DNA of 41,337 bases. Source: Clostridia bacterium (GTDB lineage Bacteria > Bacillota > Clostridia > Oscillospirales > Acutalibacteraceae). The stretch is from positions 1-41,337 of the forward strand of contig JAFTWW010000003.1 of NCBI GenBank assembly GCA_017465085.1, given 5' to 3'. The notes beneath the pieces were generated by a model. That model was not told the DNA's origin. It made no database searches and saw only the letters and a program-made list of their open reading frames with translations. Shown one piece after another: positions 13,265 through 35,970 of the stretch; position 1 is the stretch's first letter; each line of letters begins with the position of its first letter. The translations under genes were made by a program, and so were the position numbers.

Positions 13265-13269
13265 GTTAA

Positions 13270-13467
13270 GTGATATGCCGCCCTTGGCGGCGTGATATTT
13301 TCACTTTGCGAAAGTGATATTAAGTCCTTTGGACTTAGTGATATTCTATTCGCCCTATAACTTGCGAAGCAAATAACACTCGGCTAAAAGCCGAATATCA
13401 CTGCGTAGCAATATCACTCGCCGTAGGCGAATAGAGTTGGCGTAATGTCCGTTAAGGACATCACGCC
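13270..13467. repeat. Array of short tri-loop hairpins joined by GTGATAT/ATATCAC
   Basis: Eight small palindromes follow one another: GCCGCC-CTT-GGCGGC, TCACTTT-GCG-AAAGTGA, TAAGTCC-TTT-GGACTTA, TTGC-GAA-GCAA, TCGGCT-AAA-AGCCGA, TGC-GTA-GCA, TCGCC-GTA-GGCGA and TGTCC-GTTAA-GGACA. GTGATAT occurs at 13270, 13292, 13314 and 13338. The inverse ATATCAC occurs at 13395 and 13411. TATTCGCC (13348) pairs with GGCGAATA (13426). The whole thus has overall dyad symmetry with different hairpin sequences inside. It fills the gap between the cation efflux terminator and the GH31 gene. No gene is seen in it. Confidence 0.85.
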
Positions 13468-19370: not shown

Positions 19371-19382
19371 CATATAAAAATA

Positions 19383-19418
19383 AAAAAGCAGACGGATGCG
19401 CGCATCTGTCTGCTTTTT
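19383..19418 (+). terminator. Rho-independent terminator of the isomerase gene
   Basis: AAAAAGCAGACGGATG, CGCG loop, CATCTGTCTGCTTTTTT (one G-T pair). Confidence 0.9.
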
Positions 19419-19474
19419 TATTATCTATTATTTGTACTCATTAGTATCTACATATATAATGTCGAAATATGCCG

Positions 19475-19503
19475 TTGACTATTTACCCATTTTAATGTAT
19501 AAT
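19475..19503 (+). promoter_or_regulatory. Promoter of the CDP-sugar/surface-glycan operon
   Basis: TTGACT (19475-19480), 17 bases, TATAAT (19498-19503). It leaves a leader of about 80 bases before ATG 19591, with no recognised riboswitch. It is the only clear promoter seen before the terminator at 34159. Confidence 0.8.
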
Positions 19504-19590: not shown

Positions 19591-20370
19591 ATGAAAGTTG
19601 TTATTCTTGCAGGCGGATTCGGAACCCGTATTTCTGAGGAGAGTCAATTCAAACCCAAGCCCATGCTTGAGATTGGCGGCAAGCCGATTTTATGGCACAT
19701 TATGAAGGAATATGCCTACTATGGCTTTACCGAGTTTGTAATCTGCGCAGGCTACAAGCAGCACGTTATAAAGGAATGGTTTGCTGATTATTTCCTCCAC
19801 AACAGCGATATCACCTTTGATTTCACCAGCGGCAAGAACGATATGATCGTTCACAATCAGCATTGCGAGCCCTGGAAGGTTACCGTTGTTGATACAGGCC
19901 TTAATACTATGACAGGCGGCCGCATCAAGCGCATCAAGCAGTATATCGGTGATGAGACCTTTATGATGACCTACGGCGATGGCGTTTGTGATGTTGATAT
20001 AAAGGCCTTGGTTGATTTCCATAAGGCTCACGGCAAGATAGCTACCCTTACCGCTGTTACCATGGATCAGGAAAAGGGCGTTTTGGATATCGGCGGTGAC
20101 TATGCCGTTAAATCCTTCCGCGAGAAGAATAAGAACGATTCCGCTCCCATAAATGCAGGCTATATGGTTTTAGAGCCCGAGATATTCGATTACATCGAGG
20201 GAGATGATACCGTATTCGAAAGAGCTCCCCTTGAGAGCCTTGCCAAAGAAGGCCAGCTCATGAGCTTTATGCACAAGGGCTTCTGGCAGTGTATGGATAC
20301 CAAGAGAGAGATGGAGATGCTGGAGAAGCATCTTAAGAAGGGTACTGCTCCCTGGAAGAAATGGGAGTAA
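19591..20370 (+). CDS. rfbF: Glucose-1-phosphate cytidylyltransferase
   Basis: This 259-residue enzyme makes CDP-glucose from CTP and glucose-1-phosphate, the first step of CDP-3,6-dideoxyhexose synthesis. The nucleotide-binding start is LAGGFGTRISEES (residues 6-18) with KPKPMLEIGGKPI. The catalytic Asp motif is MMTYGDGVCDVD, and the C-terminal FERAPLESLA, HKGFWQCMDT and ending match the family at full length. ATG 19591 follows AAAGGAAG. A GGGAG within its last codons (20363-20367) serves the next gene, implying coupling. It is equivalent to DdhA. Confidence 0.95.
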   Translation: MKVVILAGGFGTRISEESQFKPKPMLEIGGKPILWHIMKEYAYYGFTEFVICAGYKQHVIKEWFADYFLHNSDITFDFTSGKNDMIVHNQHCEPWKVTVVDTGLNTMTGGRIKRIKQYIGDETFMMTYGDGVCDVDIKALVDFHKAHGKIATLTAVTMDQEKGVLDIGGDYAVKSFREKNKNDSAPINAGYMVLEPEIFDYIEGDDTVFERAPLESLAKEGQLMSFMHKGFWQCMDTKREMEMLEKHLKKGTAPWKKWE

Positions 20371-20378
20371 TATAAAAA

Positions 20379-22427
20379 ATGTCTTTGAAAGCAAAGAGTG
20401 AACAAAGCGGTGTTGTTTTTTACTCTTTCTTCGGCGCATTTCTTTTAACTCTTTTGGTTTGTTTTCTCCTATCCTTTGTTCCAAACGAGTTGGATGTTGC
20501 AACGATAAAGGCCTCCTTTGTTCCCTCCGTTAAAAACTTTGTGGCCGAAACCTCCGAGAAGCTGCAATACATTCTCGGAACGGTTACATTTGTTGTTTCC
20601 TATTTTCTTATAGGAGCTGCTGTGAAACGAAGCAATCGGCAGAGCATCATAAATGCCGACTATGGCATAAGCATTCTGCTAATACTAATGCTGGGCCTGT
20701 TTATAACCGTGTTATCGCTTAAAAACCCCTTCATAAAAAATCTTCCTGATTCTGTTCAGGTTGCCTTTTTTGTGTGCCTCGGGGTATGCGCGGCAACGGC
20801 AGTGCTTTTCTGCATTTTCCCATTGGGACGTTATATCAGCGAATTTTTTAAGGATAAGCAGGAGTTTTTCAATTCGATTTTTTTGGTGCTCGGCCTTGTT
20901 GCCATTATGGCGGTTAGCGCCTTCTTCTCGAGGGAAACCTATTTTTACGGCGCCCCTATGGTTGAACACCACACAGATGCCTACTTTTATCCCATATGGA
21001 AGGTTTGGTCGGGACAGTATCCCTTAGCGGATTTCAACAGCCTCTACGGCTACTACCCCTACTTCTTTGTGGCGATAATGGATTATATGGGCGGAGTTTC
21101 GATGGAAAACTTCTCCACCGTTATAAGCGTTATGGTGGCCCTTGTTTTTATCCTTATCTATTATGTGTTGTGGACAGTTTGTAAGCGTAAGATAATCGCC
21201 CTTTTGTGTCTGCTCTCCACACAGTATATTCTTGTTATGTACAATGTGGAGCTGACAGAGGATTTCTATCTGCAGTATCTTCCCCACAGAATGATAACCC
21301 TTTGTATGATTCTTGCAGTCTGCTGTGCCGATGCAAAGTATCGGGCAAAGCACGGCAAGGGCTCCGTCCTTTTGGAGACACTCGGTTGGGGTTGCTCGGG
21401 AATAGCGCTGCTTTGGAATCTTGATACGGGCGTTGTAGCTTGGCTCGGCTGGGCTATATATCTGTGCTTCGTTTATTTAGTTAACAATTCGATTTTCAGC
21501 AAGAAAACATGGCTTTATATCCTTATAACCCTCTTAAAAGCCGTTGCGGTTGCATTCATAAGCTTTGGCGTATTGCTCCTTCTCACCCTTCATCTCAGCG
21601 GTGAGTGGATAGGCTTTAAGGAGCTTTTCTGGGGACAGGGCGTTTTCTGGGGCTCGGGCTACTATATGCTAAAGATGAAGCTTTTCCATCCATGGCTTAT
21701 AGTGATGTTCACCTATGCCATTGCCCTTGCAATTTCTATTTCCCGTTTGAAAGACCTTCGCAAAGGTTGTGAAGAAAACAGGCAGGATTTTGTTAAAACC
21801 GCTCTTATGTTTATGTTGGCGGTTGTGGGCGTAGGCGTGTTTCTCTATTATCAGGGCAGGAGCCACGATTTTGTGTTTGTGGTTATTGTCTGGCCCGCTC
21901 TTATGTTGGCCGCTATGTTTGTTGACGGTGTCTTTAATCCCACCGTGGAAGAAAAACCGCCGATTTTTGCCAGAGCTACGGGCATCGGCTGGCGGGTGAT
22001 TTTGACCGCGCTGCTACTCACCTTCACAATCGGTTGGTGCGTTAATATGTTCTCCACCGATTATCTCGAGGATATAAAGAGCGAGGAATCGATTGATGTT
22101 TCGGGAGTGGAGTGCGAGGTAGAGGTTATTACCGAATCGGGCATTTCACCCGATGATGTGGAGCTTTTGACCTCCTTCGCCGCGGAAACCTATGAATATT
22201 TTGATGTTAGGTATATGCCGCCCACTCAAGCAGAGGTGGACATATTCACATATGAGGATGTTGATGAAATCAAGCAACTCCTTAAGACCACCGATAAAAA
22301 TGCAATTATAGGCAGTAAAACCCTTGGATATCTTAATCTGCGGAATAAAGAGGAGTTCCAAGCTCTTCTGGAATCCCGATTTACCCTTACGGAAATAGAT
22401 GGATATCTGGTTTGCTATAAAAAATAA
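20379..22427 (+). CDS. Large polytopic membrane protein, probable GT-C glycosyltransferase
   Basis: This 682-residue protein has roughly a dozen hydrophobic segments across residues ~15-560 and a soluble C-terminal part of about 110 residues, rich in acidic residues, ending TEIDGYLVCYKK. The first large outside loop contains EHHTDAYFYPIWKVWSGQ, then YPLADFNSLYGYYPYF. This is an acidic residue followed by an (Y/W)xxG-Y-xxDF pattern like GT-C enzymes of the PMT/GT39 type, which use polyprenyl-phosphate sugars. No precise family is recognised. It lies between rfbF and rfbG and is likely to transfer one of the sugars made by this operon to a surface polymer. Confidence 0.6.
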   Translation: MSLKAKSEQSGVVFYSFFGAFLLTLLVCFLLSFVPNELDVATIKASFVPSVKNFVAETSEKLQYILGTVTFVVSYFLIGAAVKRSNRQSIINADYGISILLILMLGLFITVLSLKNPFIKNLPDSVQVAFFVCLGVCAATAVLFCIFPLGRYISEFFKDKQEFFNSIFLVLGLVAIMAVSAFFSRETYFYGAPMVEHHTDAYFYPIWKVWSGQYPLADFNSLYGYYPYFFVAIMDYMGGVSMENFSTVISVMVALVFILIYYVLWTVCKRKIIALLCLLSTQYILVMYNVELTEDFYLQYLPHRMITLCMILAVCCADAKYRAKHGKGSVLLETLGWGCSGIALLWNLDTGVVAWLGWAIYLCFVYLVNNSIFSKKTWLYILITLLKAVAVAFISFGVLLLLTLHLSGEWIGFKELFWGQGVFWGSGYYMLKMKLFHPWLIVMFTYAIALAISISRLKDLRKGCEENRQDFVKTALMFMLAVVGVGVFLYYQGRSHDFVFVVIVWPALMLAAMFVDGVFNPTVEEKPPIFARATGIGWRVILTALLLTFTIGWCVNMFSTDYLEDIKSEESIDVSGVECEVEVITESGISPDDVELLTSFAAETYEYFDVRYMPPTQAEVDIFTYEDVDEIKQLLKTTDKNAIIGSKTLGYLNLRNKEEFQALLESRFTLTEIDGYLVCYKK

Positions 22428-22453
22428 ACAAGAAATTCCAATGAGGTGAAAAA

Positions 22454-23506
22454 ATGGATTTATCTTTTTACAAAGGCAAGAAAGTTTTCGTTACGGGCCA
22501 CACCGGCTTTAAGGGCTCATGGCTTTGCCGTATGCTCGTAGGCGCAGGCGCCGTTGTTACGGGCTACAGCTTAGAGCCCCCCACCAATCCCAATCTTTTC
22601 TCCATAGCAGGTCTTGAAGATAAGATGGATAGTATCATCGGCGATATCAGGGATTTAGATGCCCTCAAAGCCGCCTTTGATAAGGCTCAGCCCGAAATTG
22701 TGTTGCACTTAGCCGCTCAGCCCATCGTTCGCGATAGCTATAAGGACCCCCGTTACACCTATGAAACCAATGTTATGGGCACCGTTAATATTTTAGAGTG
22801 CGTACGTCTTAGCGACTGTGTTAAGAGCGTTCTTAACGTTACCACCGATAAGGTTTACCACAACAATGAGTGGTGCTGGGGCTACCGTGAGGACGAGCCC
22901 CTCGATGGCTACGACCCCTACTCAAACTCAAAGAGCTGCTCCGAGCTTGTAACACACAGCTATATAAACAGCTTCTTTGAAGGTAAGCTTCCCGTTTCCA
23001 CCGCAAGAGCCGGTAATGTTATCGGCGGAGGAGATTTTGCTAACGACCGCATCATTCCCGACTGTGTAAGGGCTATGCAGGCAGGCAAGACCATAGGAGT
23101 TAGAAACCCCTACTCCACAAGACCTTATCAGCACGTTTTAGAGCCCCTTGCAGTATATCTCACCATCGCCCAGAAGCAGTATGAGGATGCTTCCTTTGCA
23201 GGCTTCTATAATGTTGGTCCCGATGAGTGTGACTGTGTAACAACGGGCCAGCTTTGCGACCTTTTCTGCAAATATTGGGGCGAGGGCGCCGCTTGGGAGA
23301 ATCAGGCCGAGGCTAATGCCCCCCACGAAGCAAACTTCTTAAAGCTTGATTGCAGTAAGATTAAATCCGTTTTCGGATGGAAACCCCGTTGGCACATTGA
23401 AGAATGTATTGATATGACCTGCCGTTTCAGCAAAGTTTGGTTATCGGGCGGAGATATTGCGGCAGAGATGGATAAAGAAATCAAAGAATTTTTGGAGGAG
23501 AACTAA
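22454..23506 (+). CDS. rfbG: CDP-glucose 4,6-dehydratase
   Basis: This 350-residue extended SDR converts CDP-glucose to CDP-4-keto-6-deoxyglucose. The NAD loop is VFVTGHTGFKGSWL (residues ~11-24), the IGDIRD adenine-binding segment follows, and the catalytic YxxxK is in DPYSNSKSCSEL. The family-specific AARAGNVIGGGDF-like segment is present as TARAGNVIGGGDF, as is ARPYQHVLEP-like TRPYQHVLEPL. AGGTG precedes ATG 22454. It sits two bases before rfbH. It is equivalent to DdhB. Confidence 0.96.
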   Translation: MDLSFYKGKKVFVTGHTGFKGSWLCRMLVGAGAVVTGYSLEPPTNPNLFSIAGLEDKMDSIIGDIRDLDALKAAFDKAQPEIVLHLAAQPIVRDSYKDPRYTYETNVMGTVNILECVRLSDCVKSVLNVTTDKVYHNNEWCWGYREDEPLDGYDPYSNSKSCSELVTHSYINSFFEGKLPVSTARAGNVIGGGDFANDRIIPDCVRAMQAGKTIGVRNPYSTRPYQHVLEPLAVYLTIAQKQYEDASFAGFYNVGPDECDCVTTGQLCDLFCKYWGEGAAWENQAEANAPHEANFLKLDCSKIKSVFGWKPRWHIEECIDMTCRFSKVWLSGGDIAAEMDKEIKEFLEEN

Positions 23507-23508
23507 TT

Positions 23509-24852
23509 ATGGCTATTTGGAAAAATGAAGAAGAGGCACGCGCTCAGATTAAAGAGTTAGTTGCTCAGTTCTATCACGATTTTAAGGAAAAGAAGGAACC
23601 CTTTAAGGAGGGTGACCGCGTTACCTATGCTTCCCGCGTTTTCGATGAAAAGGAGATGTGCGCTCTTACCGATGCCACTCTCGATTTCTGGCTTACCACG
23701 GGTAGATTTTCCGATGAGTTTGAAAAAGAGTTTGCCAAATGGATAGGCGTTAAGTTTGCGCACCTTGTAAACAGCGGCTCCTCTGCAAATCTTATTGCAT
23801 TTTCCGTTCTTACCGCTCCCGAGCTTAAAGAGCGTCAGATTAAGCGCGGCGATGAGGTTATAACCGTTGCCTGCGGCTTCCCCACCACCGTTACCCCTAT
23901 TTTACAGTACGGCGCTGTTCCCGTTTTCGTGGATATGACCGTTCCCCAGTATAACATTGATGTTACCAAGCTTGAGGCCGCTTTAAGCGAAAAAACCAAG
24001 GCCGTTATGATTGCTCATACCCTTGGCAATCCCTTCGACCTTAAGGCCGTTAAGGAGTTCTGCGAAAAGCACAACCTATGGCTTGTTGAAGATAACTGCG
24101 ATGCTTTGGGCACACAGTATACTATTGACGGTGAAACCCGCTTCAGCGGCACCTGGGGCGATATCGGTACCTCCAGCTTCTATCCTCCCCATCATATGAC
24201 TATGGGTGAGGGCGGCTGTGTTTATACCAACAATGCCCTTCTCCACCGCCTTATCCTTTCCTATCGCGATTGGGGAAGAGATTGCATCTGCCCCTCAGGT
24301 ATGGATAACTTCTGTAAACACCGTTTTGACGGACAGTACGGTGAACTCCCCCGCGGTTACGACCACAAGTATGTTTACAGCCACTTCGGTTACAACCTTA
24401 AGGTTACCGATTTGCAGGCAGCAGTTGGCTGTGAGCAGTTAAAGAAATTCCCCTCCTTTATTGAAAGACGCCGTCACAACTGGGATAGACTCCGCGCGGC
24501 ATTAAAGCCCGTAGAGGATAAGCTTATTCTCCCCGAAGCAGCAGAAAACAGCCGTCCCTCCTGGTTTGGCTTCCTTATCTCCGTTAAAGAGGATAGCGGC
24601 CTTGACAGAAACACCGTTACCCGCTATATAGAGGATAAAAATGTTCAGACACGTCTTCTCTTCTCGGGCAACCTTATCAAGCACCCCTGCTTTGATGAGA
24701 TAAGAGGCACCGATGCCTACAGAGTATCGGGCGACCTTTCTGTTACCGACTTTATTATGAACAACTCCTTCTGGGTAGGCGTTTATCCCGGTATGACCGA
24801 TGAAATGATCGATTATATGGCTAAGGTTATTATTGAGGCTGTAAATCAATAA
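23509..24852 (+). CDS. rfbH: CDP-4-keto-6-deoxyglucose-3-dehydrase (E1)
   Basis: This 447-residue, PMP-dependent and Fe-S-containing enzyme removes the C3 hydroxyl. Two features set it apart from ordinary sugar aminotransferases. The PLP Lys site is replaced by His (SSFYPPHHMTMGEGG, H228-H229). The [2Fe-2S] ligands are in place: C197 in DNCDALG, then C259-x-C261-x7-C269 (DCICPSGMDNFC). The PMP-binding SGSSANL and VEDNCDALG segments are intact. E1 normally needs a flavin/Fe-S reductase (E3, DdhD); none is encoded in the window. The product feeds the branching or reduction step by the downstream enzymes. Confidence 0.95.
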   Translation: MAIWKNEEEARAQIKELVAQFYHDFKEKKEPFKEGDRVTYASRVFDEKEMCALTDATLDFWLTTGRFSDEFEKEFAKWIGVKFAHLVNSGSSANLIAFSVLTAPELKERQIKRGDEVITVACGFPTTVTPILQYGAVPVFVDMTVPQYNIDVTKLEAALSEKTKAVMIAHTLGNPFDLKAVKEFCEKHNLWLVEDNCDALGTQYTIDGETRFSGTWGDIGTSSFYPPHHMTMGEGGCVYTNNALLHRLILSYRDWGRDCICPSGMDNFCKHRFDGQYGELPRGYDHKYVYSHFGYNLKVTDLQAAVGCEQLKKFPSFIERRRHNWDRLRAALKPVEDKLILPEAAENSRPSWFGFLISVKEDSGLDRNTVTRYIEDKNVQTRLLFSGNLIKHPCFDEIRGTDAYRVSGDLSVTDFIMNNSFWVGVYPGMTDEMIDYMAKVIIEAVNQ

Positions 24853-24853
24853 A

Positions 24854-25348
24854 ATGAAAATTAAAAAATTTTTGAACAATCCCAAGTTCGCATCATTTAT
24901 TCAGTTCATTAAATTTTGCCTTGTGGGCGTAAGCAATACGCTTATCTCCTACGGAATAGATATGCTGTGTTTCTATGTGCTTTTTGCCTTTTCTGATTTT
25001 CACGGCTGGGTTTCTGTTCTCGGCAAAATAGGCATAACCGCAGAAGCCGAAATCATCAAGGTGATTTTGGCCTCTGTTCTTGCCTTCGTTATAAGCGTTA
25101 CCAATTCTTATTTTTGGAATAACCGTTTTGTTTTCAAATCGGAAAATTCCTCATTTAAGCAGCATTTGCTATCCTATGCCAAAACCTTTTTATGCTACGG
25201 TATAACGGGACTTATTATCTCTCCCGTTATTAAGGCGTGGCTTGTAGACCTTGGTATTTTATACGCCATCGCAAGCTTCGGCTCCTTGGTAATTACCATT
25301 CCCATAAACTTTATTCTCAATAAGTTTTGGGCTTTTAAGAAGCAGTAA
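24854..25348 (+). CDS. GtrA-like lipid-linked sugar flippase
   Basis: This 164-residue protein has four hydrophobic segments and the GtrA signature FIKFCLVGVSNTLISYGID near residues 16-34. SVTNSYFWNNRFVF follows, with the conserved Asn/Trp-Asn-(R/K)-F pattern, and the C-terminus is INFILNKFWAFKK. GtrA proteins are proposed to flip polyprenyl-phosphate sugars across the membrane. It starts one base after the rfbH stop. With the GtrB-like enzyme and GT-C proteins of this operon it forms a complete serotype-conversion-type module. Confidence 0.88.
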   Translation: MKIKKFLNNPKFASFIQFIKFCLVGVSNTLISYGIDMLCFYVLFAFSDFHGWVSVLGKIGITAEAEIIKVILASVLAFVISVTNSYFWNNRFVFKSENSSFKQHLLSYAKTFLCYGITGLIISPVIKAWLVDLGILYAIASFGSLVITIPINFILNKFWAFKKQ

Positions 25349-25395
25349 TCGCGCAGACTATGATGCGACACATATTTAGTGAGGAGGTTTGACGT

Positions 25396-27426
25396 ATGGC
25401 AAGTATGAGCTTGAAGAAAAATAACACCGCAGGAAAAGGAACACATACAAAATACGCAGACATTATCGCTCTGTGTTTCTCGCTGGCGGTTTACGCCGTG
25501 TTTAATCTTCTCTTGGTAAATAAGTTTTTTCCTATTACTGAGGGATGGTTTCAGGATGCAGCGAACTATATAAACGGCGGTCAGGCCCCCTACAAAGATT
25601 TTTATATGTTTGTACCTCCCGGATTTCCGCTTATTACATCCGCAATCAGCGCATTATCCGATAATATGTTCCTCGCGTTCCGTTTGGTTGGCGTTGCCGA
25701 ACGCCTTTTGATGCTGGCGCTGATGTACCGCATACTAAGACGTTTATTCAGCCCTATGGTTGCGGCGGTTTCAGGATTGACAGGCGCGGTGGTATATATT
25801 GCCAATATTCAGGAGATATTCTACGGATATTATCAAACTTCCTTGTTTATTGGACTAATCGGCATATGGCTCTGCATCCGTATGTATGAAACATTTGAAA
25901 AAAGTCCGTATATTTACGCCTTTTTCTTTGGCTTCTGCGCAGCGTTATCCTTTATGGTTAAGCAAACCCTTGGATTGCTGCTTTCTCTTGCCATTGGAGT
26001 TATGTTTTTGGCGGCGGTCTATTTTATAGATGCAAAAAAGGCCGTTAAGGTCTTAGCCGTTGTTGTTGCGGGCTGTGCGACGTTTTTTGCCGCGGCAGTT
26101 ATAATAATGGCGTTTACAAATACATTGCTCCCCTTCGTAGAGCAGGTTTTCGGAGGCGCAAGCTCCAAAGGCAGCCTTGTTTCTGTTTTGTTCGGTTTCA
26201 TACCTCGGATACTTACCCAGAATTCCTTAACCCTTGCAGGCCTGTTCTTAGGCTTCTATGCCTTTGGCGTTATTAAGGGTAAATGTAACAATGAGGAAAC
26301 AAAAAAAGTATGTGATGTAAGCCAATGGGTGATGCTGTTGGCCACAGCTGTATGGCTGATATTTATTTTAATTGATGCATTTGTAAGCAGAAGCAAGGAT
26401 TTTTCTCTTACATGGGAATTTGTTATTACATTGCTGGTGGGCTTCTTTATTCTGGGATTAGGCTGCATTTTTATGTGCTTCAAGGAAAACTCCAAAAAGC
26501 ACTGGGTAGCCGCACCGCTTGTTATGTTGGTTGGATTTGCGTTCTTGTTTTGGGCAATATCATCCAACAAGCAAAATCTGTTAAATTATTCGCAATTGCG
26601 CGATTTTCGCCAGCATATCCTGTTTGCAATTTTCTTATCAGAGTTTCTTGCATCCGTATATTTACTGTATAGAGTGGCAATACGAAGAGATAGCTCAAAG
26701 GCGGTCGGCTTAATTATTTGCGTGGCTTCCTGGAGCATTATGTATGTACACGGCTTCTCCTACACAATAGAGGACCACAGCGGACTGCTTTCTGTTTCTT
26801 TGTTTATAGGCTATCTGCTTTCGGCATCCACCTCGTTTAAGAATGTAAAGCAGCTATTGGCGCTTGTGTTGGCATGCGGCATAGTGCTTACTGTATTTTA
26901 TCAGCGTAATTGGTTTACTTATCATTGGTGGGGTGTTAATATGACAAACACCAGCTATGATGCCACCGAAACGTTTGATGACCCCCATCTTAAAGGAATA
27001 TATGCTAATAAAGAGACCACCGAGCCTATGAATGAGATATATCACTTGGTGGAGCAATATAAAAATGAGGATTCCACACTGTATTCCTTCCCCCATATTG
27101 CATACTTCAACGTTATGGCAGAGCTTCCTTCTCCTACATTTGCAAAAACACACTATTTCGATGTTTGTTCTGACAGTCAGGCCGAATCGGATGCGGCGGT
27201 GTTGCTTGAAAATCCACCTGATTTCATCGTTTGGATGGAAATGCCGGAAGAAACCTGGGTGATCCATGAGGATGCATTCCGAGGTGGAGAATACAGCGGT
27301 CAGAGATCTATTCAACAGGCGTATCGAACGCTCACCGAGGGTGGCGATTATACGCTTTTGGGCGTGTATCACATCTATAACTCCGACCCGATATATCTCT
27401 GGATCAATACAGAGCTGTACAAGTAA
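25396..27426 (+). CDS. Polytopic membrane protein, probable PMT/GT39-like glycosyltransferase
   Basis: This 676-residue protein has about eleven to thirteen hydrophobic segments and a C-terminal soluble domain of ~150 residues (from TYHWWGVNMTNTSYD). The first outside loop reads ITEGWFQDAANYINGGQ, then APYKDFYMFVPPGFP. This is the D-x-x-Y...G-x-x-PY-x-DF...PPG pattern of polyprenol-phosphate-sugar glycosyltransferases (GT39/PMT_2). GAGGAGG precedes ATG 25396. Its base use is unlike the neighbours': Pro codons mix CCT, CCC, CCG and CCA, whereas rfbG and rfbH use almost only CCC. It also has slightly longer flanking gaps. It may be a later arrival or replacement in the cluster. Confidence 0.65.
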   Translation: MASMSLKKNNTAGKGTHTKYADIIALCFSLAVYAVFNLLLVNKFFPITEGWFQDAANYINGGQAPYKDFYMFVPPGFPLITSAISALSDNMFLAFRLVGVAERLLMLALMYRILRRLFSPMVAAVSGLTGAVVYIANIQEIFYGYYQTSLFIGLIGIWLCIRMYETFEKSPYIYAFFFGFCAALSFMVKQTLGLLLSLAIGVMFLAAVYFIDAKKAVKVLAVVVAGCATFFAAAVIIMAFTNTLLPFVEQVFGGASSKGSLVSVLFGFIPRILTQNSLTLAGLFLGFYAFGVIKGKCNNEETKKVCDVSQWVMLLATAVWLIFILIDAFVSRSKDFSLTWEFVITLLVGFFILGLGCIFMCFKENSKKHWVAAPLVMLVGFAFLFWAISSNKQNLLNYSQLRDFRQHILFAIFLSEFLASVYLLYRVAIRRDSSKAVGLIICVASWSIMYVHGFSYTIEDHSGLLSVSLFIGYLLSASTSFKNVKQLLALVLACGIVLTVFYQRNWFTYHWWGVNMTNTSYDATETFDDPHLKGIYANKETTEPMNEIYHLVEQYKNEDSTLYSFPHIAYFNVMAELPSPTFAKTHYFDVCSDSQAESDAAVLLENPPDFIVWMEMPEETWVIHEDAFRGGEYSGQRSIQQAYRTLTEGGDYTLLGVYHIYNSDPIYLWINTELYK

Positions 27427-27480
27427 ATCAAACACAATTTTGAAAAAAGCCAGCTATCTCTCTAAAGGAGTTTGATAACC

Positions 27481-28767
27481 TTGATCAAAAATAAAGTTAA
27501 ATCGGCCCTTAGTGGCTCCACCGTTACACAAAGGATATTCGTTATAGGTACCCTTGCCCTGCTTTTGCACTGCATGCTTGCCTTCGGTCTTACAGAAGGA
27601 AGAAGCTTTTTCTCCCTTCTCCACCCCGACCGCAACGATACCCTTATGGATTTTTTCAACAGTATTTATGATGCCACTTATGAGGACCCTTATGTAGAGA
27701 AAGGCAACATTTACCCCGCTCTTTGCTTCCTCTTCTATAAGTTTTTCGGCAAGCTTCTAAATCAGGATTTCTTCACCGCTTTGCAGTGGAGAAACGATCA
27801 GGCAGGCCTTGTTCTTTACACCTTCCTGCTTATATTCAGTTGCCTTGTCCTTTACAAGCTTATAAGAATAAGGGATGATGGCTCGTTGGTAGAAAAACTT
27901 TTCCCCGTGGTTCTGCTACTGGGCACCGTTCCCTTCTGGTATTGCTTTGAGCGTGGCAACATTATTCTGCAAATGCTTATTCTCCTTCTCTTCTTCCTTC
28001 GTTTTTACAAGAGCGAAAATAAGTTTTTAAGAGAAGCGGCGCTTATCTGCCTTGCTATCTCGGTTTCTATTAAAATTTATCCCGTTTTCTTCGGGCTTTT
28101 ACTTATAAAGGATAAAATGTGGAAGGAAGCATCAAGGTGCGTGCTCTACGGCGCCGCCGTATTCTTCCTGCCCTTCTTCCTTTATGATGGCTTCGGCAGT
28201 GTTATTCAGATGGTTGAAAACATCTTCGCCACCGATGCCAAAATGCAGACCTTTGGCCTTGGTTATAGGGTAAACATAAGCAATACCCTTGATTTCCTAT
28301 CCCGATGGACAGGCCTTGACCTTATTCCCTCCGATACCTTTACCTTTGCCTTCGTAGGTGTTACCACCGCAATTACCCTTATTTTCACTAAAGAGGCGTG
28401 GAAGGTTCAGGCAGCTCTTGCGGGAGCAATTATACTTGTGGCAGGCTTCAGCTATACCTATTGCCTGATTTATATGGTGCTTCCTCTCGTTACCTTCTTC
28501 GAGAAGGGCGAAAGCCACGGATTTCTTGATAAGGTTTATATGATTTTATTCGTATGTATGTTTGCGCCCTTTGCTTTTGGAGGAGTAGACCCGTTAGGTC
28601 TTGGCACCGATTGCCTTTATCCCCTTGGCGCCACCACCATAATTTCCAGTCTTGCGTTGGCGCTTATGGTCGTTATGCTAACCGTTGAGGCAATTTACCG
28701 TGTTGTAAGGCCTAAGATTGCAGAACATATAGCGGCCCGAGCCGCAAAAAACGCTCAAAGCGCATAA
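27481..28767 (+). CDS. GT87 (DUF2029)-family membrane glycosyltransferase
   Basis: TTG at 27481, ten bases after AAAGGAG, is preferred over the TTG at 27472 that touches the ribosome site. It gives 428 residues. About ten hydrophobic segments are present. The GT87 signature is seen as PFWYCFERGNIILQMLIL, then ISVSIKIYPVFFGLLLIKDK, matching the family's ERGQ-N...K-x-YP pattern. GT87 proteins are polyprenyl-phosphate-mannose-type (GT-C) transferases acting on the outer face. The C-terminal helix is basic and Ala-rich. The TPP enzyme gene follows after 12 bp. Confidence 0.75.
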   Translation: MIKNKVKSALSGSTVTQRIFVIGTLALLLHCMLAFGLTEGRSFFSLLHPDRNDTLMDFFNSIYDATYEDPYVEKGNIYPALCFLFYKFFGKLLNQDFFTALQWRNDQAGLVLYTFLLIFSCLVLYKLIRIRDDGSLVEKLFPVVLLLGTVPFWYCFERGNIILQMLILLLFFLRFYKSENKFLREAALICLAISVSIKIYPVFFGLLLIKDKMWKEASRCVLYGAAVFFLPFFLYDGFGSVIQMVENIFATDAKMQTFGLGYRVNISNTLDFLSRWTGLDLIPSDTFTFAFVGVTTAITLIFTKEAWKVQAALAGAIILVAGFSYTYCLIYMVLPLVTFFEKGESHGFLDKVYMILFVCMFAPFAFGGVDPLGLGTDCLYPLGATTIISSLALALMVVMLTVEAIYRVVRPKIAEHIAARAAKNAQSA

Positions 28768-28779
28768 AGGAGTTTATTT

Positions 28780-30612
28780 ATGAAACAAAGACTTGCAGAT
28801 TTCGTAGCAGATTTTTTAGCCTCTAAAGGCGTTACCGATGTATTTTCCGTTGTTGGCGGAGGCGCTATGCATCTTAACGATGCCCTCGGTCATCACGATA
28901 AATTAAAGGTTACCTATAACCATCACGAGCAAGCCTGCGCCATTGCGGCAGAGGCTTATGCCCGTCTTGATAACAAGATTGCCGCCGTTTGTGTTACCAC
29001 GGGCCCCGGAGGCACTAATGCGCTTACAGGCGTTGTTGGCGGTTGGCTCGATTCTATTCCGATGTTTATTGTAAGCGGTCAGGTTCGTTACGATACCACC
29101 GCCCGTTACGCTTTGCAGTTCACCGAAACTCCCCTTCGCGCTATGGGTGATCAGGAATACGATATTGTAAAATCCGTAGAGCCTATGACCAAGTATGCCG
29201 TTATGATTGAGGACCCCACAAGAATTAAATACGAGCTTGAAAAGGCTTGGCATTTGGCCACTACGGGCAGACCGGGTCCCGTTTGGGTGGATATCCCCGT
29301 AAACTATCAGGGCGGTTTCATCGAAACCGATGAGCTTGAGGGCTACGACCCCGCCGAAGATGATAAGCTTCTTCCTCCCCCTGTTGATGAGGCTACTATT
29401 GATATGGTAATCGAGAAGATAAAGAGCGCCAAGCACCCCGTTTTCCACGCAGGCTACGGTATAAGACTTTCGGGTGGCTTCGAAAAATTCAGAAGCGTTC
29501 TCGAAAAATTAAATATTCCCGTTGTTACCTATTGGAACGCCATTGATTTAATTGAATCCGATCATCCCCTCTACTGCGGCAGAGCAGGTAATATGGGTGA
29601 TAGAGCGGGCAACTGGGCAATCCAGAATGCCGATCTGGTTTTAGCGGTTGGCACCCGTATATCCATCCGTCAGACAGGATACAACTGGAAAACCTGGGCA
29701 AGAAGCGCCGAGGTTATTATGGTGGATATCGATAAAGCAGAGCTTAAAAAACCTACCTTACACGTTGAAAATCCCGTTTGGGCAGATGCTAAGGACTTCC
29801 TTACCGCCCTTGATAATAAGCTTGATAGCAAAATATATGATGGCGATGAATGGCTTGATGCTTGCCGCGGATGGAAAGAAAACTACCCCGTTGTTCGCGA
29901 GGATCAAAAGGAAGAAAACGGCGAAACCGCCAATGTTTACGCCTTTGTGGATTATTTAAGCCGTCAGCTTCCCGAAAACGCTCTTACTGCCGTATCCAAC
30001 GGCGCTTGCTGTGTTGTAGGCCATCAGGCATACCATATTAAAAAGGGCGCCCGCTTCGCTAACAACAGCGCCGTTGCAAGTATGGGATACGGTCTTCCCG
30101 CCGCCATCGGCACCTGCATAGGCGGTGGCAGAAACGAAACCATCTGCCTTGAAGGCGATGGCTCTATAATGATGAATTTACAGGAGCTTCAGACCATTCT
30201 TACCAACAAGCTTCCTATAAAGATATTCTTAATAAACAACAGCGGATATCATTCCATCCGCATAACCCAGACCAACCTTTTCTCAAATCACTGCAAGGTT
30301 GGTATCGGCGAAGAATCGGGCGACCTTTCCTTCCCCGAGTTTGAAAAGCTTGCCAAGGCCTTTGGCTACCCCTACCTTTCGGCTCACAGCAATGCCGAAA
30401 TGAAAGAGGCGGTTGATAAGGCTCTTAAAACCGAGGGCCCCGTTTTCTGTGAAATCTTTACCGATACCAAGCAGGTATGGGAGCCTAAGAGCAGCACCAA
30501 GCGTCTTCCCGATGGAACACTTGTTAGTCCTCCCCTTGAGGATTTAGCGCCCTTCCTACCGAGAGAAGAGCTTAAAAAGATTATGTTTGTTCCGCTTATA
30601 AGTGAGGATTAA
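28780..30612 (+). CDS. TPP-dependent acetolactate-synthase-like enzyme, YerE-type candidate
   Basis: This 610-residue protein has the three-domain layout of acetolactate-synthase/YerE flavoproteins. The N-terminal pyrimidine domain has the cofactor-activating Glu (YNHHEQACAI, E50). The middle domain is of the TPP_enzyme_M type. The C-terminal PP domain carries GDGS at 459-462 and Asn-Asn at 486-487, the Mg/TPP motif. It lies with rfbF, rfbG and rfbH, directly followed by an SDR gene. That is the gene set for yersiniose-type sugars, where YerE adds a two-carbon unit from pyruvate to C4 of a CDP-3,6-dideoxy-4-ketohexose. A housekeeping IlvB role is less likely: no ilvN, ilvC or ilvD is nearby. 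The specific substrate is inferred from context. Confidence 0.75.
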   Translation: MKQRLADFVADFLASKGVTDVFSVVGGGAMHLNDALGHHDKLKVTYNHHEQACAIAAEAYARLDNKIAAVCVTTGPGGTNALTGVVGGWLDSIPMFIVSGQVRYDTTARYALQFTETPLRAMGDQEYDIVKSVEPMTKYAVMIEDPTRIKYELEKAWHLATTGRPGPVWVDIPVNYQGGFIETDELEGYDPAEDDKLLPPPVDEATIDMVIEKIKSAKHPVFHAGYGIRLSGGFEKFRSVLEKLNIPVVTYWNAIDLIESDHPLYCGRAGNMGDRAGNWAIQNADLVLAVGTRISIRQTGYNWKTWARSAEVIMVDIDKAELKKPTLHVENPVWADAKDFLTALDNKLDSKIYDGDEWLDACRGWKENYPVVREDQKEENGETANVYAFVDYLSRQLPENALTAVSNGACCVVGHQAYHIKKGARFANNSAVASMGYGLPAAIGTCIGGGRNETICLEGDGSIMMNLQELQTILTNKLPIKIFLINNSGYHSIRITQTNLFSNHCKVGIGEESGDLSFPEFEKLAKAFGYPYLSAHSNAEMKEAVDKALKTEGPVFCEIFTDTKQVWEPKSSTKRLPDGTLVSPPLEDLAPFLPREELKKIMFVPLISED

Positions 30613-31536
30613 ATGATAAACAGAGATATTAAAAGCGCCGTTTTAACGGGCCCCACGGGCGCTATCGGCACGGCCTTATGCCGTGAGCTTGCCGAAAACG
30701 GCGTTACGGTTTATGCCGTTTGCCGCCCAAACTCCAATAGGGCCGCATCGGTACCCGAGCATAAAAACATCCGCAAGGTGTTCTGCGATTTATCTGCCCT
30801 TTGTAGCCTTAAAGAGTTAATTCCCGATGGTGCCGATGCCTTTTACCACTTTGGTTGGGCCCATACCATCGGCGATGGCAGAAACGATATGCCCTCCCAG
30901 ATTGAAAATATTTCCTATTGTATTGATGCTGTTCGCGCCGCTAACGAGCTTGGCTGTAAGGTATTTATCGGTGCAGGCTCTCAAGCAGAGTACGGCAGGG
31001 TTGATGGGGTGCTTACCCCCTCCACCCCTTGCTTTGCCGAAAACGGCTACGGTATTGCCAAGCTTGCCGCAGGAAATATGAGCCGAATCGAATGTGAAAA
31101 GCTGGGTATTCATCACGTTTGGGTGAGAATTTTAAGTGTATACGGCCCTAACGATAGTCGCTCTACTATGATTTCGGGGCTTATAGACAAGCTCTTAAAG
31201 GGCGAAAGGCCCTCCCTTACCCTTGGTGAGCAACAATGGGATTATCTCTATTCCTTCGATGCCGCCCGCGCCTTCCACCTTATTGCAAACAGCGGAGTTT
31301 CGGGCAAAACCTATGTATTGGGTAGCGGCGAGGCAAGGCCCCTTAAATGCTATATCGAGCAGATAAGGGATTTTATCGACCCCGCTCTCCCCTTAGGCTT
31401 CGGCGAGGTTCCTTACGGACCTAAGCAGGTTATGAGATTGCAGGCCGATATATCGGAGCTTACAAGGGATACGGGCTTTACCCCCGAAACAGATTTTGCC
31501 GAGGGTATAGAAGCAACAGTAAAAGCATTCAGATAA
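30613..31536 (+). CDS. Extended SDR sugar reductase/epimerase, YerF-type candidate
   Basis: This 307-residue NAD(P)-dependent extended SDR has the dinucleotide loop AVLTGPTGAIGTALCREL (residues ~9-26), a GAGSQAEYG segment with the catalytic Ser region, YGIAKLAAG as YxxxK, and a C-terminal substrate domain (VWVRILSVYGPNDSR; QQWDYLYSFDAARAF). The ATG directly follows the TAA of the TPP enzyme gene, so the two are coupled. In yersiniose synthesis YerF reduces the acetyl branch left by YerE. CDP-abequose or CDP-paratose synthases (RfbJ/RfbS) are alternatives from the same superfamily. The adjacent TPP enzyme favours the first. Confidence 0.7.
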   Translation: MINRDIKSAVLTGPTGAIGTALCRELAENGVTVYAVCRPNSNRAASVPEHKNIRKVFCDLSALCSLKELIPDGADAFYHFGWAHTIGDGRNDMPSQIENISYCIDAVRAANELGCKVFIGAGSQAEYGRVDGVLTPSTPCFAENGYGIAKLAAGNMSRIECEKLGIHHVWVRILSVYGPNDSRSTMISGLIDKLLKGERPSLTLGEQQWDYLYSFDAARAFHLIANSGVSGKTYVLGSGEARPLKCYIEQIRDFIDPALPLGFGEVPYGPKQVMRLQADISELTRDTGFTPETDFAEGIEATVKAFR

Positions 31537-31549
31537 AGGGGATTTAATT

Positions 31550-32503
31550 ATGAGTAAAAAGACTGTTTCTGTAATGATTCCTTGCTATAACGAGGAAGAA
31601 AATGCCCGCGCTATATATGAGGCAGTAAGGGATGAGTTTATTAAAAGTCTTCCCGAATACAACTATGAGATTTTGTTTATAGATAATAAATCGCAGGATA
31701 ACACCCGCGCCATAATCGAGGATATTTGCAAAGAGGATAAGAACGTTAAGGCAATCTTTAATGCCAAGAACTTCGGTCAGTTCAACTCCCCCTACTATGG
31801 CATACTCAACACCACGGGTGACTGCACCGTTACCATCTGCGCCGATTTTCAGGACCCCGTTGAGCTTATTCCCGTTTTTGTTAAGGAATGGGAAAAGGGC
31901 TATAAGATTGTTATCGGTAGAAAGACCAAGAGTCAGGAAAGCAAATTAGTTTATTTCCTTCGCGGTTGCTACTATAAGCTGATACGCAAGATGAGTAGCG
32001 TCGAGATGATCGAGCAGTTTACGGGCTTTGGTCTTTACGATAAAAGCTTTGTTGATACAATGAGAAATCTTAAGGACCCCATTCCCTTTATAAGAGGTAT
32101 TGTGGCTGAGCTTGGTCCCGAAAGAAAAGAGATTGAGTATGAGCAGCCCAAGAGAAGAGCGGGCAAAACCCATAACAATTGGTATAGCCTTTTTGATGCC
32201 GCGATGCTAAGCTTCACAAGCTACACCAAGGTTGGAATGCGCGTTGCCGAGTTCTTCGGCTTCTTAACCGCGGCTTTAAGCTTTATTATCGGTATTATTT
32301 ATCTTATCGCTAAGCTTGTTAACTGGTACGCCTTTGCCGCAGGCTACGCCCCCATTATTATTGCTGTTTTCTTTATGGGCGGTATTCAGCTTGCATTCTT
32401 AGGCTTTATCGGCGAATATATCCTTTCCATCAACACCCGCGTTATGAACAGACCTTTGGTTGTTGAGGAAAAGAGAATAAATTTTGAAGAAGAAAAGAAA
32501 TAA
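31550..32503 (+). CDS. GtrB-like polyprenyl-phosphate glycosyltransferase (GT2)
   Basis: This 317-residue protein has an N-terminal GT-A domain: VSVMIPCYNEEENA at the start, IDNKSQDNT, and the metal/nucleotide motif D99-F-Q-D102-P. Two C-terminal hydrophobic hairpins (about 230-300) end in FLGFIGEYILSI. This is the DPM1/GtrB/ArnC layout, which links a sugar from NDP-sugar to undecaprenyl phosphate at the inner face. The donor could be the CDP-sugar of this operon or UDP-glucose. AAGGGG precedes ATG 31550. The pairing with GtrA (24854) and a GtrII-like protein next door supports the role. Confidence 0.88.
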   Translation: MSKKTVSVMIPCYNEEENARAIYEAVRDEFIKSLPEYNYEILFIDNKSQDNTRAIIEDICKEDKNVKAIFNAKNFGQFNSPYYGILNTTGDCTVTICADFQDPVELIPVFVKEWEKGYKIVIGRKTKSQESKLVYFLRGCYYKLIRKMSSVEMIEQFTGFGLYDKSFVDTMRNLKDPIPFIRGIVAELGPERKEIEYEQPKRRAGKTHNNWYSLFDAAMLSFTSYTKVGMRVAEFFGFLTAALSFIIGIIYLIAKLVNWYAFAAGYAPIIIAVFFMGGIQLAFLGFIGEYILSINTRVMNRPLVVEEKRINFEEEKK

Positions 32504-32512
32504 AGTGACTTT

Positions 32513-34153
32513 ATGAAGAAGTACATCAATGATTTAAGAGAACTTTTAAGCAACAGAATATATATCTGGAGCGTTATCATAATCTCTGTTATTTCCTTCG
32601 GCTATGCCGCTTTCAACAGTTCTATCAGCATAGATGATACAGAGTATGATAGATACGTGGGCTCGGGAAATGTTATGCTTTCTGCGGGCCGCTTCGGCAT
32701 CTGGTTCTGGTCCTTTATTGAGGGCCGATGGGAAAACTCCTTCCTCATAGATGTTGTTGCCGTTTTCCTCTTTATATTTGCCTGCCTTAATTTCTGCGTT
32801 CTCTTCAAAAGGGTTTCGGATAATAAAATAGGTATGGGCGCCTTAACGGTTTTCTCCTGCCTTTTTATCTCCTACCCTCTTATGAATGAAATCTGGGAAT
32901 ACACGGGGGCAAACGTTAATATTTGCGGCTCATTTTTCTTGGTATCCCTATCTCTTTTGATGCTTCACAGCTTTATTCATAATAAAAAGACACTCCTTTC
33001 CTACCTCTCCCTTGGAGGAACGGCGCTTCTGATGATGCTTGTGTGCGCAGGCTATGAATCGGTGGTGCCCGTTTATATCTTCTTTGTTTTTGCCATCCTT
33101 GCCCTGCAAATTATTTACGGTGAAGAAAAGGAAAAGAAGTTTTCAAATATCATAAAGCAGGGCCTTATCTATGCAGGCGTATTGCTTGCGGGACTTGCGC
33201 TCAGGCTTATCGTTCACAGAATTATTTTAGCCGTTCTTAATATTCCTGCGGCTATCAACGGAGCAACGCAGATTCTGTGGAAAACTGCAACCCCAAAGGC
33301 TATCATCACACAGCTTTTTGATGATTTGTTTGTTAAATATATCTTCCGCTCGGTAATCTATTTCCCGCTTCTTGTTTTTATGCTTTGCGGCCTTGCCTTC
33401 TTAATTATGGGCATCATCGCTTGCAAGAAGCACGGAGCTATACTGCTTTTTACAGGCTTTGGTATGCTTCTTTCCTTGGTTATACTTCCTTTGATTCAGG
33501 GTGTTTGCGCGCCCTACCGCACCTGTCAGGTGATAGCGGCATTTTGCGCCTTTACGGCTATGATGCTCATCTCCTGCTTCCCGAAGGGTGTTAGCAAAAC
33601 AAAAACAGTTTTGCGAATATGCGCTATTTCCCTTTGCGGTTTGCTCTGCTTCTATCAGGCAAGCTTCCTTAATTTCTTCTTGGAGATTAACCACCGCAGA
33701 AGCGAAAGCGAGGAGGTTGTTGTAAGGCAGATAAGCTATGACCTTCGAAGCGGCTTTGACCAGAATAAGCCCGTTATTTTCGTAGGCTCCCACTCACTCA
33801 GCCCCACCTATACCGAGGCGGTGAGTATATCGGAAAACAGCGTACGCTGGAACATATACTGTAGGCTTTGCAGTAAATATTACAGGCTTACGGGCAGAGA
33901 GTTCAATATGGGCGCGCTATCCCGAAAGCTGCCTGAAAGCAATATCAACTCGGTAATTAACTGGTCCATTACCGCCTTTGAAAGTCAGGATGCTATGCCT
34001 AAGCTGTTTGCCTATTACGGCTGCGCCTATGTTGCCGCGGATTTCAATACCTATTGGGCTCCCGCCAATGAGGCCGCCGCCGAGATGCCCGCCTACCCCG
34101 AAAAAGGATATATAAAGGATATGGGCGATTACATTATCGTTAATATGCAATAG
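32513..34153 (+). CDS. GtrII-like (Glucos_trans_II) membrane glycosyltransferase
   Basis: This 546-residue polytopic protein has about eleven hydrophobic segments. The first outside loop carries SISIDDTEYDRYVGSGN, then MLSAGRFGIWFW, which fits the paired acidic residues and the GR(W/F)G motif of the GtrII/Glucos_trans_II family. Those serotype-specific transferases move a sugar from polyprenyl phosphate onto a surface polysaccharide. The C-terminal domain (about 400-546) is soluble and probably outside. The gene starts nine bases after the GtrB-like stop with a weak ribosome site, so it is probably coupled. It is last in the operon and ends at a strong terminator. Confidence 0.75.
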   Translation: MKKYINDLRELLSNRIYIWSVIIISVISFGYAAFNSSISIDDTEYDRYVGSGNVMLSAGRFGIWFWSFIEGRWENSFLIDVVAVFLFIFACLNFCVLFKRVSDNKIGMGALTVFSCLFISYPLMNEIWEYTGANVNICGSFFLVSLSLLMLHSFIHNKKTLLSYLSLGGTALLMMLVCAGYESVVPVYIFFVFAILALQIIYGEEKEKKFSNIIKQGLIYAGVLLAGLALRLIVHRIILAVLNIPAAINGATQILWKTATPKAIITQLFDDLFVKYIFRSVIYFPLLVFMLCGLAFLIMGIIACKKHGAILLFTGFGMLLSLVILPLIQGVCAPYRTCQVIAAFCAFTAMMLISCFPKGVSKTKTVLRICAISLCGLLCFYQASFLNFFLEINHRRSESEEVVVRQISYDLRSGFDQNKPVIFVGSHSLSPTYTEAVSISENSVRWNIYCRLCSKYYRLTGREFNMGALSRKLPESNINSVINWSITAFESQDAMPKLFAYYGCAYVAADFNTYWAPANEAAAEMPAYPEKGYIKDMGDYIIVNMQ

Positions 34154-34158
34154 ATAGA

Positions 34159-34188
34159 AAAATCCGCCGCGAAATTCGCGGCGGATTT
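34159..34188. terminator. Terminator ending the surface-glycan operon
   Basis: AAATCCGCCGCG, 6-base loop, CGCGGCGGATTT, with T-rich sequence on the plus side and A-rich on the other. It probably also serves the convergent aconitase-X operon. Confidence 0.9.
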
Positions 34189-34199: not shown

Positions 34200-34643
34200 T
34201 TATTCTACTTCAACTACTCCATCTGCCTTAACGGTTATCTTCATTCCATCCTTAACATAGTTTAAGAACTCATCACCTAAGGAATCGATAACAGGCATTG
34301 TGCATCCATCAACCCAAACATCTGCAAGAACTGCTCCTGCGGCGGCAAGGGAATCTATATGGTTTGCAAAGAGCATACAAGCGGGGCTTCTGCCCATAGC
34401 ACAGGCGCAGTAGATTACTAGACCGCCTGTGGTGGAGCCGATGGTCTGCGGCAGACAAAGCGCCTTGTTATAAAGAGGCTTGCCGTGAAGCTCCTTATTG
34501 TTCTGATCGCCGCACTTTGCCTCCTTATCGCCGAACTGCAAAGCCATCTGAAGCGAAGCTAAGGTATTAAAGCCCTCGGTGGTTACTACCGCCTCGGCAG
34601 TTACCTCACCCGGAGTTACAACTCTTCCTTTGAACTGTTTCAT
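34200..34643 (-). CDS. Aconitase X swivel-domain subunit
   Basis: This 147-residue small subunit of the AcnX family (DUF126) has an N-terminal FKGRVVTPGEVTAEAVVT, then the family's GSTTGGLVIYC segment with Gly/Ser/Thr ligands, and the barrel edge SLAAAGAVLADVWVDG. It pairs with the catalytic subunit encoded just upstream, whose stop overlaps this ATG by one base. AcnX enzymes are Fe-S hydro-lyases; known members dehydrate cis-3-hydroxy-L-proline (bacteria) or mevalonate 5-phosphate (archaea). The substrate here is unknown. Confidence 0.88.
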   Translation of the reverse strand: MKQFKGRVVTPGEVTAEAVVTTEGFNTLASLQMALQFGDKEAKCGDQNNKELHGKPLYNKALCLPQTIGSTTGGLVIYCACAMGRSPACMLFANHIDSLAAAGAVLADVWVDGCTMPVIDSLGDEFLNYVKDGMKITVKADGVVEVE

Positions 34644-35920: not shown

Positions 35921-35970
35921 AATATTCTCCTTGCGGAACGACACATAAGTCGTTCCCTACAATTTATATC

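Follow-up and report, generated by a model that had tools for sequence, protein, structure and literature searches.

The DNA analysed in this work, referred to throughout as the window, is a stretch of 41,337 nucleotides from Clostridia bacterium (GenBank assembly GCA_017465085.1, contig JAFTWW010000003.1, positions 1-41,337 of the forward strand; GTDB lineage Bacteria; Bacillota; Clostridia; Oscillospirales; Acutalibacteraceae). Its central feature is an operon-like run of eleven same-strand genes at 19591-34153 (+), separated by intergenic gaps of 0-47 bases, whose likely product, judging from the protein families encoded, is a C4-branched cytidine diphosphate (CDP)-linked 3,6-dideoxysugar. 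The source genome (G000; 1.66 Mb, 52 contigs) has a completeness of 96%, a figure that applies to every genome-wide negative given below. Genes and bounding elements are listed in order, with profile scores and cut-offs in bits; TM, predicted transmembrane segments; ThDP, thiamine diphosphate; SDR, short-chain dehydrogenase/reductase.

19379..19422 (+), terminator-like stem of 20 pairs, upstream of the operon
19475..19503 (+), promoter-like site TTGACT-17-TATAAT, a consensus match only (11/12)
19591..20370 (+), RfbF, glucose-1-phosphate cytidylyltransferase (TIGR02623, 370.2; cut-off 300.25)
20379..22427 (+), polytopic protein of 682 aa (about 13 TM; GT-C-like by topology only)
22454..23506 (+), RfbG, CDP-glucose 4,6-dehydratase (TIGR02622, 443.1; cut-off 278.45)
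23509..24852 (+), RfbH or E1, iron-sulfur (Fe-S) and pyridoxamine phosphate-dependent CDP-4-keto-6-deoxyglucose 3-dehydrase (NF011936, 717.2; cut-off 423; 3bcx, 520.7)
24854..25348 (+), GtrA-type membrane protein, putative polyprenyl-phosphate sugar flippase (PF04138, 62.3; cut-off 26.1)
25396..27426 (+), PMT_2/GT39-like GT-C glycosyltransferase (PF13231, 26.5, barely over the cut-off of 26.1; about 12 TM)
27472..28767 (+), GT87 GT-C glycosyltransferase (PF09594, 38.4; cut-off 25)
28780..30612 (+), likely JanthE-type (YerE-like) ThDP carboligase, proposed to acylate C4 of a CDP-4-ketosugar (three TPP-enzyme domains)
30613..31536 (+), extended SDR, proposed branch-ketone reductase with a YerF-like role (PF01370, 118)
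31550..32503 (+), GtrB/ArnC-like GT2 glycosyltransferase, proposed loader of the CDP-sugar onto a lipid carrier (sll0501, 148.6; ArnC, 97.2; phrog_841, 221.1)
32513..34153 (+), GtrII-type GT-C protein, proposed extracytoplasmic transferase (PF14264, 84.6; cut-off 30)
34160..34188 (+), terminator-like stem of 13 pairs, seen on both strands, at the operon end

A preliminary description of this DNA had identified RfbF, RfbG and RfbH and had placed them, with a ThDP enzyme and an SDR lying back to back, in a single Clostridia-type operon. These identifications held: all three Rfb proteins scored above curated cut-offs, the TAA of the ThDP gene is followed directly by the ATG of the SDR gene (gap 0), and the run is compact and bounded by stems. 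Spo0A was present in the genome (158.9 bits) and LpxC was not found there, which fits a Clostridia cell without lipopolysaccharide (LPS). Promoter-like sites across the region were at chance level (26 found, 24.7 expected) and terminator-like stems numbered 31 (18.3 expected). The 682-aa protein had no match in Pfam, NCBIfam or PHROG.

Relatives of the operon were collected from two sources. Co-occurrence was scored in 150 genomes of the family, the source genome included, at thresholds chosen by the analyst (E <=1e-100 for the ThDP enzyme, 1e-120 for RfbH and 1e-100 for the GT2). A scan of named genomes gave at least 587 confirmed relatives, of which the best 80 were kept; together with the window and 19 loci from family genomes these made up 100 loci, at most 98 of them distinct (the ThDP enzymes of L036/L086 and of L031/L076 are identical) and many on short contigs. 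Bacillota account for 56 of the 80 named relatives (including Gemmiger formicilis, Hungatella hathewayi, Butyrivibrio, Selenomonas artemidis and Desulfosporosinus), and the remainder come from Treponema, Sphingomonas, Bradyrhizobium, Verrucomicrobia and others. RfbH was encoded in 50 of the 100 loci, RfbG in 42, RfbF in 40, the SDR in 59, the GT2 in 57 and GtrA in 11. When restricted to the 59 loci with more than 8 kb on both sides (the window being counted, though only 5.5 kb behind its ThDP gene was taken), the counts were 32 for RfbH, 36 each for the GT2 and the SDR and 31 for an aldolase. Neighbouring genes were grouped into families (f0-f14) by clustering, with at most two members of each tested against Pfam or NCBIfam. 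Because the gene set recurs in these relatives, its arrangement in the window is not a matter of chance.

The ThDP enzyme, its SDR partner and RfbH

The best PDB match of the ThDP enzyme was JanthE (Janthinobacterium sp. HH01; PDB 8rph, 8rpi and 8rpj) at 459 bits, compared with about 222 bits for acetohydroxy acid synthase (AHAS), and JanthE was also its top structural match. Sequence identity was 40% to JanthE, 30% to 5ahk (titled acetohydroxy acid synthase Pf5 in the PDB, which we take to be Pseudomonas YerE) and 29% to AHAS. In a quick phylogeny (SH-aLRT support, LG+G4, JanthE and 5ahk being flagged as long rows) the window enzyme fell in a clade separate from AHAS; the grouping with housekeeping acetolactate synthases that would speak against the preliminary description was not seen. 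Genes for ilvB, ilvN and ilvC were located elsewhere in the genome (the latter two named from sequence and neighbours) and no IlvN adjoins the ThDP gene; on the strength of the separate clade and these other loci, a housekeeping AHAS identity was rejected. The enzyme resembles JanthE in length, in its C-terminal stretch and at the positions of Y297 and K567, and differs from it in carrying GDG in place of the CDG motif and at the positions of V121, Y268 and P293. For these comparisons the numbering of the JanthE paper was presumed to be the fragment number minus one, set so as to fit V121, Y268, P293, Y297, K567, H494, S498 and F564. The protein is therefore likely a YerE-like ketone carboligase of the JanthE type, closer by sequence to JanthE than to AHAS; the earlier assignment to YerE stands in this wider sense, the enzyme being no nearer to 5ahk than to AHAS. 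In YerE searches of plasmid records, the matches listed (40, 30 and 30 of about 1,550-1,590 records each) were ThDP proteins of AHAS and other types, with identities of about 28-37%.

The SDR retains S123, Y146 and K150 (the S-Y-K set), invariant in 32 rows, and its structure model (built, like that of the ThDP enzyme, from 32 rows) had a predicted local distance difference test score of 97.3. Since a fold search returned generic extended SDRs, the fold was not used as functional evidence. A YerF-like role, as given in the preliminary description, is proposed here from gene context and co-occurrence, which tie the SDR to the ThDP gene: it lies directly behind that gene in 41 of the 100 loci. 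Among the 150 family genomes, the ThDP enzyme was found in 18, RfbH in 21 and both in 17; a close GT2 was found in 17, all of them RfbH-positive and 16 ThDP-positive; and an SDR of at least 43% identity, a line set after the list had been seen, was found in 13, every one ThDP-positive. Fisher tests of co-occurrence gave values from 6e-19 to 1e-13, uncorrected for relatedness. Of the four RfbH-positive, ThDP-negative genomes, three (G029, G082 and G095) encode a more remote SDR (36-38%), whose gene immediately follows that of RfbH in G095. The pattern is consistent with a close SDR whose substrate is the branched product, and with another reductase in genomes that make no branched sugar.

The Fe-S and histidine motifs from which RfbH had been recognised were borne out by alignment, C193, H220, C251, C253 and C261 being invariant in all 47 rows (window included; the three of 50 loci with only a shorter RfbH were omitted). 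We take the four cysteines to be the 2Fe-2S ligands of Yersinia E1 and H220 to be the catalytic histidine; with this set kept, electrons are presumably still needed. No RfbI/DdhD-type reductase was found in the operon, and none in the genome (96% complete), where Fer2 and NAD_binding_1 had as their sole matches a hydrogenase-type and a PyrK-type protein, respectively (names read from sequence and neighbours). A motif scan of the 100 loci, applied as a regular expression to open reading frames of 250-480 aa, found no RfbI-like gene; it recovers six of eight Fer2-bearing controls and so may miss one. Two of its matches were rejected as E3-type reductases, that in L052 because it overlaps the GT2 gene in another frame and that in L057 because its sequence is unlike a reductase on inspection. 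Fer2 gave 36 matches in the 17 other ThDP-positive genomes, five of them in open frames of 391-412 aa that may encode an RfbI-type reductase (an enzyme of about 330 aa), and none in G107, G116 and G121, the last of which is 100% complete and encodes RfbH and ThDP proteins 86% and 84% identical to those of the window. RfbH is likely served by an electron donor other than RfbI/DdhD.

Proposed pathway, side chain and delivery

From what is known of these families, RfbF and RfbG would convert glucose-1-phosphate to CDP-4-keto-6-deoxyglucose, and RfbH would remove the C3 hydroxyl with electrons from a non-RfbI source. The JanthE-type enzyme would then decarboxylate a 2-oxo acid, either pyruvate (giving yersiniose) or a longer one, and place the acyl unit on the C4 ketone to form a tertiary alcohol, and the SDR would reduce the new side-chain ketone. 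The GtrB-like GT2 would move the finished sugar from CDP onto undecaprenyl phosphate, GtrA would flip the lipid-linked sugar across the membrane, and on the outer side GtrII or another GT-C protein would join it to a protein or a cell-wall polymer. We hold this explanation as a whole, a C4-branched 3,6-dideoxysugar delivered via lipid phosphate and attached outside the membrane, to be probable with moderate confidence.

The surface glycosyltransferases of the preliminary description are present, and the GtrB/GtrA/GtrII set changes the probable route to the surface. None of the eleven genes encodes a soluble glycosyltransferase, and the GT2 is nearest to GtrB (sll0501), ArnC and the phage GtrB-like phrog_841. 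According to excerpts of PMC11127046 and PMC8035078, three-part periplasmic or wall glycosylation comprises an undecaprenyl phosphate loader, a flippase and a GT-C enzyme. By composition such a system is complete in the operon (31550, GtrB/ArnC-like; 24854, PF04138; 32513, PF14264), and together these genes look like a GtrA/B/C-type system for the branched dideoxysugar that recurs in Clostridia. In some relatives the gene behind the GT2 is a member of family f10 (L027, L033, L062 and L066; in L033 a YfhO, with PF09586 at 314.8 bits) or of f11, whose L082 member is a GT87 (30.4 bits, cut-off 25). A VCA0040-like protein (PF04018, undecaprenyl phosphate translocase family) is encoded at 40064-40906 (-), about 6 kb from the operon proposed to use undecaprenyl phosphate.

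Several observations weigh against this explanation. On the delivery side, GtrA occurs in just 11 of the 100 loci and at least seven TM were predicted for 16 of 53 genes behind the GT2 (background, 124 of 1364), so that the GtrA/GT-C part is not fixed; in L067, L070 and their kin, GT2 proteins of a soluble type are encoded behind the GT2, and a Bac_transf priming enzyme is present in the vicinity. Among the family genomes, two of the 18 ThDP-positive ones (G008 and G121) have no close GT2 and five (G008, G012, G058, G120 and G144) no SDR of at least 43% identity; G029, G082, G095 and G099 have RfbH without the ThDP enzyme, and the GT2 of G029, found there without a ThDP enzyme, may mean that this transferase is not specific for branched sugars. 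To these are added the RfbI/DdhD-type reductase that was not found, and, for the carboligase, the replacement of V121, Y268 and P293 of JanthE by D, M and R. The physiological substrates of JanthE itself have not been identified (PMC12188165).

The length of the side chain divides the possible readings further. In the strict yersiniose pathway the donor is pyruvate and the product CDP-4-C-(1-hydroxyethyl)-3,6-dideoxyhexose, whatever the route of delivery; as to the sugar this is a sub-case of the preferred explanation, and we place it a little short of even. A two-carbon branch is the simpler reading: pyruvate is ubiquitous, the operon contains no aldolase gene, and in the smallest well-supported set (six rows, 99) that includes the window SDR, four of its five companions are encoded in ThDP-SDR loci that lack an aldolase. 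Pyruvate may be the donor, since an HMGL-type aldolase was not found in the source genome (no positive control; 96% complete), where the one PF03328 protein over its cut-off lies in another glycan locus. The octose of the preliminary description, with its two-carbon branch, is nevertheless not supported in that specific form, while a C4-branched dideoxysugar is likely: in all five of the closest relatives of the ThDP enzyme by distance on the tree (L026, L025, L045, L046 and L050; 79-84%) an aldolase-like gene comes directly behind, which points to longer branches. The single nearest SDR (L094, 66%) is likewise from an aldolase locus, making yersiniose proper less favoured and a longer branch more so.

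An erwiniose- or caryophyllose-like branch, for which the ThDP enzyme would keep an aldolase-linked donor preference and draw its 2-oxo acid from other pathways of the cell, is in our estimate rather unlikely. An aldolase-family gene was present in 47 of the 100 loci (HMGL type in 33, HpcH/HpaI type in 14; families defined by clustering, with two HMGL and one HpcH/HpaI member tested in Pfam), and the L025 HMGL-type protein is nearest to 4-hydroxy-2-oxovalerate aldolase models, well below their cut-offs. The YerE-like enzyme ErwE accepts 4-hydroxy-2-oxo acids but does not use pyruvate, according to excerpts of PMC12247030. The lack of an aldolase in the operon counts against such a branch, as do close ThDP relatives (L049, L051, L052 and L053; 75-80%) that have the SDR behind the ThDP gene and no aldolase, some of them on short contigs; L049, from Gemmiger formicilis An723, has the cassette RfbH-ThDP-SDR-GT2. 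Aldolase presence changes six times on the ThDP tree and nine times on the SDR tree, a quick phylogeny as well, and is deducible from neither; the idea that SDR phylogeny follows the aldolase better than ThDP phylogeny was rejected on these counts. Motif columns near the active site likewise gave no separation of aldolase from non-aldolase types, and a column-wise search for donor-specific ThDP residues reached a best mutual information of 0.46 (relatedness uncorrected), not confined to the active site.

Two further readings dispense with the branch. The SDR could make a plain 3,6-dideoxyhexose (abequose or paratose), the ThDP enzyme having some other purpose; its generic fold and the distant SDRs of the RfbH-positive, ThDP-negative genomes would suit this, but the confinement of close SDR homologues to ThDP-positive genomes and the position of the gene directly behind the ThDP gene in so many loci make it improbable. 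That the ThDP protein is an acetolactate synthase lying by chance in a polysaccharide operon we consider very improbable indeed: among NCBIfam models an AHAS one scores highest (330.7 bits), yet under its cut-off of 538.35, and the separate clade, the lead of JanthE as PDB match, the ilv genes elsewhere and the presence of RfbH in 17 of the 18 ThDP-positive genomes all stand against it.

Other gene families near the ThDP gene were noted in the 100 loci. An AroB-related cyclase-like family occurs in 11 of them, including L104 (Bradyrhizobium), L071 (Selenomonas artemidis), L073 (Butyrivibrio), L087 and L095, the L095 protein matching TIGR04425 at 417 bits (cut-off 400); given the precedent of bradyrhizose, a known bicyclic sugar, the family suggests, by analogy, cyclised branched sugars, Bacillota included. 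A C-methyltransferase family lies close behind the ThDP gene in nine loci (L028, L068, L070, L074, L078, L080, L083, L092 and L108; the L074 protein carries a Methyltransf_14 domain) and suggests an extra methyl branch. Five loci (L095, L114, L116, L118 and L124) contain a NeuB-family gene, the L118 protein matching PF03102; the titles of their contigs name Verrucomicrobia, Caulobacteraceae, Acidobacteria, Bryobacteraceae and Saccharibacteria. In the source genome, a second glycan locus (L139, contig C52) contains priming sugar-transferase-like, HpcH/HpaI-like (PF03328) and D-2-hydroxyacid-dehydrogenase-like genes, the names otherwise read from sequence.

Outside the operon, the window contains a Gut-1 RNA at 13268-13349 (+) (RF01706, 51.7 bits, gathering threshold 50), two adjacent GH31 glycoside hydrolase genes at 13484-15964 and 16063-18570 (-), alike in length and domain layout and probably a tandem duplication, and, at 34200-35944 (-), an aconitase X whose large part and swivel domain are encoded by separate, neighbouring genes; these lie behind genes for an NADH:flavin oxidoreductase and a MarR-type regulator.

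Relation to known systems and significance

As in the yersiniose A pathway of Yersinia pseudotuberculosis (ddhDABC, YerE), RfbF, RfbG and RfbH, which we take to be the equivalents of DdhA, DdhB and DdhC, are encoded in one cluster with a YerE-like ThDP enzyme and, here, a tied SDR. The claim that the combination is the same as in Yersinia holds to this extent; it fails for the DdhD/RfbI-type reductase, which was not found in the operon or genome, and the window differs further in that its operon has no soluble transferase and its ThDP enzyme is of the JanthE type. In Salmonella and Yersinia, according to excerpts of PMC3715488, dideoxysugar genes are accompanied by a DDH transferase and wzx. 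With respect to the erwiniose pathway (ErwE, Pectobacterium), the aldolase genes of related loci suggest long-chain donors, whereas the window operon has none. A GtrB-type C55-P transferase, GtrA and a GT-C protein are likewise combined in one operon in the Listeria GtlA/GtcA/GtlB, Bacillus CsbB/GtcA/YfhO and Shigella GtrB/GtrA/Gtr systems, YfhO being the GT-C partner in Bacillus and also the protein behind the GT2 in relative L033. The window would differ from those transmembrane systems in its donor, a branched 3,6-dideoxysugar linked to CDP; the term CDP is absent from the main texts of PMC8035078 and PMC11127046. Judged by its gene content, the whole would function as a pathway of the yersiniose type that feeds a system for glycosylation across the membrane.

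Branched sugars ascribed to YerE-like enzymes belong to Gram-negative LPS or to the lipooligosaccharide of Mycobacterium marinum in excerpts of PMC12247030 and PMC9912281, and excerpts of PMC4753412 ascribe the branched octoses found in Gram-positive antibiotics to enzymes of other kinds. A literature search found no paper on a Gram-positive branched 3,6-dideoxysugar. An old chemical report is said to describe a 4-C-branched 3,6-dideoxyhexose in Eubacterium saburreum, an oral member of the Lachnospiraceae; if right, this type of sugar is chemically known in Gram-positives.

We tentatively propose, at somewhat less than even confidence, a more general model in which gut Clostridia build C4-branched 3,6-dideoxysugars with an RfbH that works without an RfbI/DdhD reductase, export them as undecaprenyl-phosphate sugars and attach them by GT-C enzymes, the operon type recurring across Bacillota with aldolase, cyclase and C-methyltransferase modules that vary the side chain. 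The relatives are a source of YerE-like enzymes for tertiary-alcohol biocatalysis that differ in their partner modules, and the operon poses the testable question of what reduces RfbH where RfbI is missing. If the proposal is true, Gram-positive gut commensals show branched sugars on their walls via a lipid-phosphate route, which would bear on immune recognition, phage receptors and serotype-like variation, and these sugars would form a large, little-explored family on gut commensals.

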